Shown: positions 2,020-4,475 of the stretch, in pieces
Position numbering within the stretch: the first letter of the stretch is position 1
Layout: every line of letters starts with the position of its first letter
Assembly (NCBI RefSeq): GCF_002024805.1
Contig: NZ_CP014337.1
Coordinates: 1,736,001 to 1,800,000 of the forward strand
DNA length: 64,000 nucleotides
DNA from: Elizabethkingia bruuniana
GTDB lineage: Bacteria; Bacteroidota; Bacteroidia; Flavobacteriales; Weeksellaceae
Direction: 5' to 3'
Notes under the pieces: generated by a model
Database searches by the model: none
Told to the model about the DNA's origin: nothing
The model's input: the letters and a program-made list of their open reading frames with translations, nothing else
Program-made: the position numbers and the translations under genes

Positions 2020-2301
2020 CTATGCTAAAATATCTTTATATTCATCGGAACTATGCAGAACTCTGTTTGCATAAGGACACAATGGTATTATTTTAATGTT
2101 ATTCTCGCGTGCGTAATCTACTCCTGCATTCACCAACTGCTTTCCTATTCCCCTTCCTCCGAAAGCTTCATCTACTTCTGTATGATCAATAATAATTTTG
2201 TCTTCTCCGGCTACCGAATATGTCATTAACCCAACAACTCTGTCATATTCAATAGCTTCAAATACTCCTTTTGAACCTTCTCTTTTGTGTTTTATTTCCA
2301 T
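2020..2301 (-). CDS. Small GNAT-type N-acetyltransferase (YjdJ/NATD1-like)
   Basis: 93-residue protein of the short GCN5-related acetyltransferase family. The acetyl-CoA binding pattern is seen in VDEAFGGRGIGKQLV (Q/R-x-x-G-x-G/A type) and the C-terminal part IKIIPLCPYANRVL matches the conserved IxPxCPY..xxF end of this subgroup. Substrate is unknown. It is the fifth gene of the bstA operon, 22 bases after the deformylase-like gene. Confidence 0.8.
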   Translation of the reverse strand: MEIKHKREGSKGVFEAIEYDRVVGLMTYSVAGEDKIIIDHTEVDEAFGGRGIGKQLVNAGVDYARENNIKIIPLCPYANRVLHSSDEYKDILA

Positions 2302-2323: not shown

Positions 2324-2941
2324 TTATTTAATTTTAATAAAAGCATCAGCTCTCTCATAAAGATCATTTTTTTCTTTTTCTTTTTTATCAGATATCAAAA
2401 TACCTGAAAGATGATCTATTTCATGCTGAAAAATAACCGCAGTAAAACCTTCTACTATTTCGGTATGTTTTTTACCTTTCAAATCCGAATACTCCAATTG
2501 TATGACTTTGCTTCTATAAAACTGATCTCTAAAATCTGTGATAGAAAGATCCCCTTCTGGTCCAAGGTTTTGCAATTGTGATTTCCACAGAATTACAGGA
2601 TTCAGAAAATATTCAAATGGCTTCCCTTCTTTATCAAAACGCTGAACCCAAATTATTCTTCGGTTAATTCCTACCTGAGGTGCGGCAATACCAACTCCAC
2701 TGCCTGTTGAAAGCAGGGACAGTTTCATCCGTTCAACCAGAATAGCTGTATTGGGATCTTTTGGATCAATATCTGCGGACATACCAAGCAGTGTTTTACT
2801 CTGTTCAGGCTCACTTACATTATAAACAGGTAATGCAGAATGAATATCTCCCTGTTTTATAATAGATATTTCATTTGAAGTTAGTTTCTGAGCACTGAGC
2901 AAACCTACACATACAACTAACAGAAGCGTTATTTTTTTCAT
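2324..2941 (-). CDS. Exported peptide-deformylase-like protein, metal Cys replaced by Asp
   Basis: 205-residue member of the peptide deformylase fold. Motif 1 is intact (GVGIAAPQ, residues 82-89) and motif 3 is intact (HEIDH, residues 173-177), but motif 2, normally EGCLS, reads EGDLS (129-133): the cysteine that binds the metal in known deformylases is Asp131. In addition the protein begins with a clear signal peptide (KK, hydrophobic 5-15, LLSAQ), so it should act in the periplasm, where formyl-Met removal is not expected. Length exceeds the usual 165-190 residues because of the leader. It follows a Crp/Fnr regulator by 35 bases. True cellular deformylase is presumably elsewhere. Function open: altered metalloenzyme or a catalytically changed paralogue. 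Confidence 0.85.
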   Translation of the reverse strand: MKKITLLLVVCVGLLSAQKLTSNEISIIKQGDIHSALPVYNVSEPEQSKTLLGMSADIDPKDPNTAILVERMKLSLLSTGSGVGIAAPQVGINRRIIWVQRFDKEGKPFEYFLNPVILWKSQLQNLGPEGDLSITDFRDQFYRSKVIQLEYSDLKGKKHTEIVEGFTAVIFQHEIDHLSGILISDKKEKEKNDLYERADAFIKIK

Positions 2942-2976: not shown

Positions 2977-3573
2977 TTATCCGGGAAGAAAGTTCTTCTT
3001 TGCCAGTTCTCTGCGGACACGGCTAAGGCTTTCCGGGGTTATTCCCAGATATGAAGCAATCATCCACTGAGGAACTCTCATCATAAGATTTGGATAGGTA
3101 GTAATAAAGTCCAGATATCGCTCTTCTGCAGTAGCCCCTAATAACTGTGATACTCTTTTCTGAAGCTGGCGGATATGACGGTGCAGCAAGAATTCAGATT
3201 TTTCAATCGCATCTTTATACTCCTTACTCAGATTAATAAAAAATTCCGGTTCAAGGATTACAACAACAGTATCTTCCACAGCCTCTATTGTAAAATCCGT
3301 AGGAAGGCCAAAATAGGAGCTGTTTCTATCCCCTAGCAGCCAATTTTCCGGAGCAAAGTATAATACATGCTCTTTTCCGTTTTTATCTGTAAAAAACTGA
3401 CGGAGAAGTCCCTGCTCTACAAAATAAAGTTCTTTATTTATTTCACCTGCTCTTACAAGTACTCTTCCTTTTGGAATGGTTTTAAGTTTTATGAGATTCT
3501 CACAAACCGAAACCTGCTGATCCTGAATGCCAAAAAGCTGCTGAATATATTTTGAGAAATTTTCTGTTATCAT
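2977..3573 (-). CDS. Crp/Fnr-family transcriptional regulator
   Basis: 198-residue regulator with an N-terminal cyclic-nucleotide-binding-type beta barrel (about 25-120; PKGRVLVRAGEINKELYFVEQG) and a C-terminal winged helix-turn-helix (about 150-195; WMIASYLGITPESLSRVRREL). No cysteine set for an iron-sulfur cluster is visible, so it is not an Fnr-type oxygen sensor; the ligand is unknown. It starts 4 bases after ytxJ, in the same operon as two bacillithiol-linked genes, which suggests a link to thiol or electrophile stress; that link is inference. Confidence 0.9.
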   Translation of the reverse strand: MITENFSKYIQQLFGIQDQQVSVCENLIKLKTIPKGRVLVRAGEINKELYFVEQGLLRQFFTDKNGKEHVLYFAPENWLLGDRNSSYFGLPTDFTIEAVEDTVVVILEPEFFINLSKEYKDAIEKSEFLLHRHIRQLQKRVSQLLGATAEERYLDFITTYPNLMMRVPQWMIASYLGITPESLSRVRRELAKKNFLPG

Positions 3574-3577
3574 TCTT

Positions 3578-3949
3578 CTAAGGTAGTAATTCCAGGTTTA
3601 TATTTTCATGCGAAGCCTTGTAAATCGCAACTCCATTTTCCAACACAATAATCTGCGGGCTTTCATGTCTTATCATAAATTGTTCAGCAATCTGATTGGA
3701 AATAGGTCTGAAACGCAACAGGTCCAGATAATAGAACTTGTATCCTTCCGGAGCATGTTTATTAAGATCTGTTTCAAAATTTTTCAGAACCATTTTACTG
3801 ATAAAGCAGCTCGTAGAGTGCTTAAAAATAGCTACTTTAGTATGCTTGGACTCCTCAACAACCTTATCCAAATTTTCAGTTGACTCTATAGTAAGCCACG
3901 GACTGTTCTTCAACTCCTCTTTGCTTTTAAATAAATCAAATATTCCCAT
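3578..3949 (-). CDS. ytxJ: Bacillithiol system redox protein YtxJ (monothiol bacilliredoxin)
   Basis: 123-residue thioredoxin-like protein. The active-site segment FKHSTSCFISKM with a single cysteine (Cys48) and the cis-Pro region HESPQIIVLENG match YtxJ, the proposed monothiol bacilliredoxin BrxC that removes bacillithiol from proteins. The start lies 1 base after the stop of the bacillithiol transferase gene, so the two are translationally close. Its presence argues that this organism makes bacillithiol or its N-methyl form; the biosynthesis genes are not in the window. Confidence 0.88.
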   Translation of the reverse strand: MGIFDLFKSKEELKNSPWLTIESTENLDKVVEESKHTKVAIFKHSTSCFISKMVLKNFETDLNKHAPEGYKFYYLDLLRFRPISNQIAEQFMIRHESPQIIVLENGVAIYKASHENINLELLP

Positions 3950-3950
3950 T

Positions 3951-4475
3951 TTACTTTTGTAGTGTTAATTGTATATGTCCTAAATGATGGTTACAATGCC
4001 AATCATAGGTAGCCAGTGCTGTATAGAGCGAAATTTCATTATTATGCTCAGGGTGCACAAATATTCTGTGATAATCCTCAGAAGTCATACTTTCCAACAA
4101 AACCGTCCAACGATGGTGCAATCCTTCCAATATGGATAATGATGAATCTATAGGCAGGTGCTTTGTGTCACCTAATTCTGCCCACAAATTTTCCATATAA
4201 GGTTTTATAACTGGTTTATCCTCGGTAAGCGCCAACTTGAATCTTGTAAAGGAATTTATATGAGAATCTGCACAATGGTGCACTACTTGCCGTACTGTCC
4301 AGCCATTTTCTCTATATGGAGTATCCAATTGTTCATCGGACATATTCTGTGTCAGTTCTTTTACTTTATTAGGAAATTCCTTTATAACTGTAATCCAGTC
4401 TTTTATTTTGCCTTCATCAAATTCCGCAGGTTTCTGAAATCTTCCGATGGGATATTTTTTCTGCTCTAAATCCAT
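3951..4475 (-). CDS. YfiT-family bacillithiol transferase (DinB/BstA-like)
   Basis: 174-residue four-helix DinB-fold protein. The metal triad typical of the fold is visible: His66/His67 in RQVVHHCADSH and His160/His164 in YDWHCNHHLGHI. The opening PIGRFQKPAEFD and the GWTVRQVVHH segment are characteristic of the YfiT/BstA branch, which couples bacillithiol to electrophiles or drugs. It is the first gene of a six-gene operon (ytxJ, Crp/Fnr, deformylase-like, GNAT, membrane protein). A -7 box for it is at 4493-4500 on the minus strand, back to back with that of pncA. Confidence 0.88.
   Translation of the reverse strand: MDLEQKKYPIGRFQKPAEFDEGKIKDWITVIKEFPNKVKELTQNMSDEQLDTPYRENGWTVRQVVHHCADSHINSFTRFKLALTEDKPVIKPYMENLWAELGDTKHLPIDSSLSILEGLHHRWTVLLESMTSEDYHRIFVHPEHNNEISLYTALATYDWHCNHHLGHIQLTLQK

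Follow-up and report, generated by a model that had tools for sequence, protein, structure and literature searches.

A deformylase-like protein of Elizabethkingia with a probable export leader and a conserved aspartate at the position of the metal-binding cysteine

Results

The reading frame and its motifs

The window, by which we mean the whole 64,000-nucleotide stretch of the Elizabethkingia bruuniana chromosome that was analysed, contains a minus-strand open reading frame (2324..2941) that runs from ATG to TAA and encodes a product of 205 amino acids, called here the EGDLS protein, whose match to the deformylase family PF01327 scores 111 bits (cut-off, 22.8). Two of the three deformylase motifs are intact, as the sequence-only reading had recognized: motif I, GVGIAAPQ, which ends in the expected Gln (residues 82-89; 2675..2698, minus strand), and motif III, which reads QHEIDHLSG and so conforms to the QHExDH pattern, with its two His ligands and catalytic Glu in residues 172-177 (2411..2428, minus strand). 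Motif II (residues 129-133; 2543..2557, minus strand) reads EGDLS instead of the EGCLS of deformylases, and alignment to solved deformylases places Asp131 at the position of the Cys metal ligand. The whole of motif I and the Q, H, E, D and H of motif III are invariant both in an alignment of 14 family members (A1) and in one of 28 (A2). Against TIGR00079, the NCBI deformylase equivalog model, the product scores 95.4, which is below the cut-off of 103.95.

The first 18 codons (2888..2941, minus strand) encode a leader, MKKITLLLVVCVGLLSAQ, that resembles a signal peptide and is likely, judging from its sequence, to be cleaved between A17 and Q18, both of which are invariant in 28 orthologues. 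In 54 of the 76 reading frames tallied, the stretch 5' of motif I has no Met codons besides those within the leader and one that lies just 10 residues ahead of the motif. The sequence-only reading had proposed a signal peptide, and the sharing of the leader among orthologues is in keeping with this: the EGDLS protein is very probably exported, with the periplasm as its most likely location. Peptide deformylase proper works in the cytoplasm at the ribosome.

Conservation of the aspartate

A scan of the genome collection yielded 80 related contigs, nearly all from Chryseobacterium and Elizabethkingia, with Moheibacter besides at 51% identity, and the Asp of motif II is encoded in all 80. Both Asp codons are in use, GAT in 70 and GAC in 9 of the 79 reading frames counted, and the median dN/dS over 421 pairs is 0.056, which indicates strong purifying selection on the gene. 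Because all 80 related loci carry the Asp and dN/dS is this low, chance, a sequencing error or a pseudogene can be ruled out; the codon in the window is GAT, two changes away from TGT or TGC, as the sequence-only reading had pointed out. Gln89, Glu129, Gly130, Leu132, Ser133, His173, Glu174 and His177 are likewise invariant in the 28 orthologues.

When 395 Bacteroidota genomes were searched with a DNA pattern encoding EGDL...QHExDH, 8 matched, each of them from the window's own family, the Weeksellaceae, and a reversed control of the pattern gave no matches; the count is a lower bound because the Glu codon was fixed as GAA in the pattern. The bacteria in which the exchange is fixed belong to soil, water and opportunistic groups. 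An origin of the gene on a mobile element was considered and rejected, as there was no plasmid match at E 1e-20 and the only phage matches were to distant deformylases. Searches of an open-access literature collection turned up neither a mention of the string EGDLS nor a description of a deformylase that is exported.

The exported family and the origin of the exchange

Searches extended from the Weeksellaceae to the order and then to the phylum delimit an exported deformylase-like family whose members score above 190 bits with a family hidden Markov model, compared with less than 118 bits for the ordinary deformylases listed. The EGDLS protein falls within this family by its leader and N-terminal extension, by Gly127 and Phe166, and by a score above 190 bits. 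Members from other Weeksellaceae genera have the same type of leader but carry EGCLS, scattered members from other Bacteroidota have lipoprotein-like leaders, and one protein (L193) groups with the family although it has no obvious leader. One member, L171/L197, comes from another taxonomic family of the same class and has 411 residues, in which a signal-like leader is followed by DUF1684 and EGCLS deformylase domains. L134-L138, L223 and L224 make up a distinct clade within the Weeksellaceae, in which the leaders are lipoprotein-like, motif II reads DGCLS and additional cysteines occur. Motif II is also altered in viral deformylases, to EACLS in six and to ESCMS in L228.

In a tree of 60 proteins from which the motif column had been left out, the 21 Asp proteins all fall into a single clade (support 96/91, recovered in 97% of bootstrap trees), so that one change accounts for their distribution. 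The sister clades retain the Cys, which is usually the sole cysteine of the mature protein. Since the Asp proteins form a single clade whose sisters carry export leaders together with Cys, the replacement of Cys by Asp was most likely a single event within a family that, to judge from its leaders, was already exported. The sequence-only reading had named homologues with the same export signal that keep the Cys and are active deformylases as evidence that would count against it, and half of this description applies, in that relatives with the same kind of export signal do keep the Cys.

Cysteine content, predicted fold and substrate pocket

In 79 of the 80 related loci the mature part of the Asp-clade protein is free of cysteine. 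Each of the 19 EGCLS members of the family (18 with a leader, and L193 without one) has exactly one mature Cys, the ligand itself, and ordinary deformylases in the compared set have between one and four.

A structure prediction from a shallow alignment reached a pLDDT of 63.8 and was superseded by one in which viral deformylases had been added to the alignment, with a pLDDT of 93.8. The structure matches listed for the latter model are solved deformylases, so that the predicted fold is that of a deformylase; the best match, to the Thermotoga maritima enzyme, has a Z of 23.1 and an rmsd of 1.3 A over 147 residues.

Gly127, Phe166, Thr167, Val169 and Ile170 are nearly fixed across both the Asp and the Cys clades of the exported family and differ from the residues of most ordinary enzymes. 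The comparison was numbered on a row for the E. coli deformylase, and we take these five positions, on the basis of the E. coli structures, to line the methionine pocket. The new specificity that had been proposed earlier is plausible, because the predicted pocket positions depart from those of ordinary deformylases, and the sharing of these residues by both clades suggests that a change in specificity may be older than the exchange of the ligand.

Gene neighbourhood

In the window the gene lies in a tight run on the minus strand. The probable first gene of the run encodes a YfiT-family bacillithiol transferase (3951..4475; NF009807, 244 bits against a cut-off of 160), with the motif TAAATTTG in the intergenic stretch upstream of it, and is followed by genes for a monothiol bacilliredoxin of the BrxC/YtxJ type (3578..3949; PF11009, and TIGR04019 above its cut-off) and a Crp/Fnr-type regulator (2977..3573; PF00027), both of which are neighbours only in Elizabethkingia. 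Downstream of the EGDLS gene is a gene for a small GNAT-like protein (2020..2301; Acetyltransf_CG, PF14542). The last gene of the run (1157-2014) encodes an apparent membrane protein of 285 residues that has no Pfam or NCBIfam match. The run of yfiT, brxC, crp, EGDLS gene and GNAT gene occurs in all three other Elizabethkingia contigs tested and is absent from the Chryseobacterium contigs tested. The operon described from the sequence, in which bacillithiol genes are combined with a Crp-type regulator, is thus real in this genome, but it does not serve as a functional clue because it is confined to Elizabethkingia, and a general functional link to bacillithiol or Crp is rejected for the same reason.

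The gene lies 3' of a ChaN gene in 74 of the loci analysed, with genes for HemS and an HmuV-type ATPase further upstream in most of these. In Chryseobacterium the sequence TAnnTTTG is found 24-27 nt 5' of the ATG in 71 of 75 cases, compared with 4% in shuffled sequence, and some loci have a hairpin-like stretch; on these two grounds the gene is probably transcribed there from its own promoter, and a functional link to haem uptake is weakened accordingly. The Moheibacter-type and EGCLS lineages have different neighbour genes. With no constant neighbour across the lineages, the context does not assign a function. Two local arrangements were also observed: in three Moheibacter-like loci (L120, L127 and L129) the gene is directly 3' of one for an N-acetylmuramoyl-L-alanine amidase that resembles a lipoprotein and contains a peptidoglycan-binding domain, and in Chryseobacterium sp. 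Bi04 (L052) a long stretch of near-identical repeats lies about 1.2 kb upstream.

The same genome (4.43 Mb, one contig) encodes two further PF01327 proteins, both with EGCLS, and ordinary N-terminal processing is therefore independent of the EGDLS protein. The gene for one of these deformylases (L002; G000 contig 1, near 1972018) directly follows that of another Crp-family regulator and is itself followed by a gene that reads like a methionine aminopeptidase.

Discussion

The replacement of the Cys at the ligand position by Asp is solidly established as a feature of the sequence, and the resulting protein is likely to be an enzyme. The function that we propose, and to which we give an even chance, is that of an exported, probably periplasmic metallohydrolase of the deformylase fold with a His-His-Asp site, which would act on N-formylated or N-acylated peptides and whose Asp would resist the oxidation to which a thiol is subject. 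The ancestor would have been an exported deformylase homologue that had the Cys and an already altered substrate pocket, and in one Weeksellaceae lineage the mature protein would then have exchanged its remaining cysteine for Asp. The metal would be held by His173, His177 and Asp131 in place of two His and a Cys, Glu174 would activate the metal-bound water as in the usual mechanism, Gln89 and the backbone of Leu132 would stabilize the intermediate, and formyl or other small acyl groups would be removed from peptides outside the cytoplasm. The proposal is favoured by the lack of any variation in the catalytic Gln, the Glu and the two His across the exported family. The protein is nevertheless placed as a variant within the deformylase superfamily; strictly speaking it is not a peptide deformylase, since it lacks the Cys ligand that characterizes those enzymes. 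This absence weakens its claim to be a peptide deformylase but leaves the case for its acting in the manner of one unaffected.

The proposed resistance to oxidation draws on what is known of the cysteine in deformylases and in exported proteins. Hydrogen peroxide oxidizes the Cys ligand of deformylase along with its iron, exported cysteines are systematically oxidized (PMC10751367), and nitric oxide S-nitrosylates Cys90 of deformylase (PMC7683392). It is therefore reasonable to regard the change of the last thiol to a carboxylate ligand as an adaptation to an oxidizing compartment, in which an Asp could plausibly keep a metal site working under conditions that a Cys-Fe site would not survive. 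Export did not make the exchange obligatory, since the exported sisters retain their Cys. The retained Cys counts against the proposal as a whole, and so does L193, which groups with the family but has no obvious signal peptide.

An objection to the proposed enzyme is that the C90S form of the Salmonella deformylase is non-functional (PMC7683392); the residue introduced there was Ser and not Asp, but the ligand position is a sensitive one. The same result, with the fact that the exchange strikes a metal ligand and the score below the cut-off of the NCBI equivalog, would be accounted for if the protein were a non-catalytic descendant, an exported deformylase fold with a ligand, be it a formylated peptide, actinonin or another hydroxamate, or a metal, that it binds without hydrolysing anything. 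We consider this unlikely, though deserving of real weight: the orthologues show no change in the catalytic Gln, the Glu or either His, dN/dS is very low, and Asp is a good metal ligand that has become fixed, whereas varied residues would be expected at this position after loss of the site. A second alternative, which we regard as improbable, is that of an ordinary deformylase that works within the membrane or on its cytoplasmic side, with the leader as an uncleaved anchor. The family member that lacks an obvious leader could be read in this way, but the invariant Ala-Gln at the end of the leader in the 28 orthologues, the lipoprotein-like leaders of related clades and the fusion of one member behind a leader-bearing DUF1684 domain all point to export, and the cytoplasm is already served by two Cys-type deformylases. 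Very improbable, finally, is a change of chemistry, in which the His-His-Asp set, similar to the two-His-one-carboxylate site of the non-haem iron oxygenases, would serve a reaction other than amide hydrolysis, possibly in haem or iron handling: the HmuV-type ATPase, HemS and ChaN genes that adjoin the gene in most Chryseobacterium loci would fit, but the HExxH and catalytic Glu typical of hydrolases are kept, the gene has an apparent promoter of its own in Chryseobacterium, and its neighbours differ in other lineages.

A broader and more tentative reading, which we put somewhat below an even chance, is that the protein represents a natural His-His-Asp deformylase active outside the cytoplasm, part of an extracytoplasmic system of deformylation or deacylation in which the oxidation-prone Cys was replaced once while the enzyme went on acting on formylated or acylated peptides that are exported. 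Deformylases are commonly recognized by their Cys ligand, to which their use of iron and their sensitivity to oxidants are tied. A natural and long-conserved exchange for Asp, with a close sister family that carries Cys, is thus a clean experiment of evolution on the reason for the Cys in deformylase. The exchange would also point to an extracytoplasmic requirement for deformylation or deacylation that has gone unrecognized, and it cautions against labelling any PF01327 protein by default as a deformylase of the ribosome and a target for drugs.

Comparison with known systems

The type 3 and other accessory deformylases are likewise extra copies with altered motifs that occur beside a normal deformylase, but the parts of their description consulted here mention neither an Asp ligand nor exported forms (PMC12690207). 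Peptide deformylase itself (PF01327; type 1B enzymes such as that of Acinetobacter baumannii, 6jf4, and the Thermotoga maritima enzyme, 1lme), which takes the formyl cap off newly made bacterial proteins, shares with the EGDLS protein the fold (best Z 23.1), the motif I with its Gln, the HExDH, and the residues that flank the ligand position, Glu-Gly on its N-terminal side and Leu-Ser on its C-terminal side. The EGDLS protein differs from it in having Asp at that position, an export leader, a mature part free of Cys, and Gly127, Phe166 and Thr167 where ordinary enzymes usually hold other residues. The aspzincin metallopeptidases also combine an HExxH with Asp as the third ligand, but the order of their motifs is unrelated and the likeness would lie in the ligand set only. 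Further counterparts are the exported EGCLS homologues of the Weeksellaceae and of scattered other Bacteroidota, which have the same leader, N-terminal extension, pocket residues and scarcity of mature cysteine, and which, unlike the EGDLS protein, have kept the Cys ligand.
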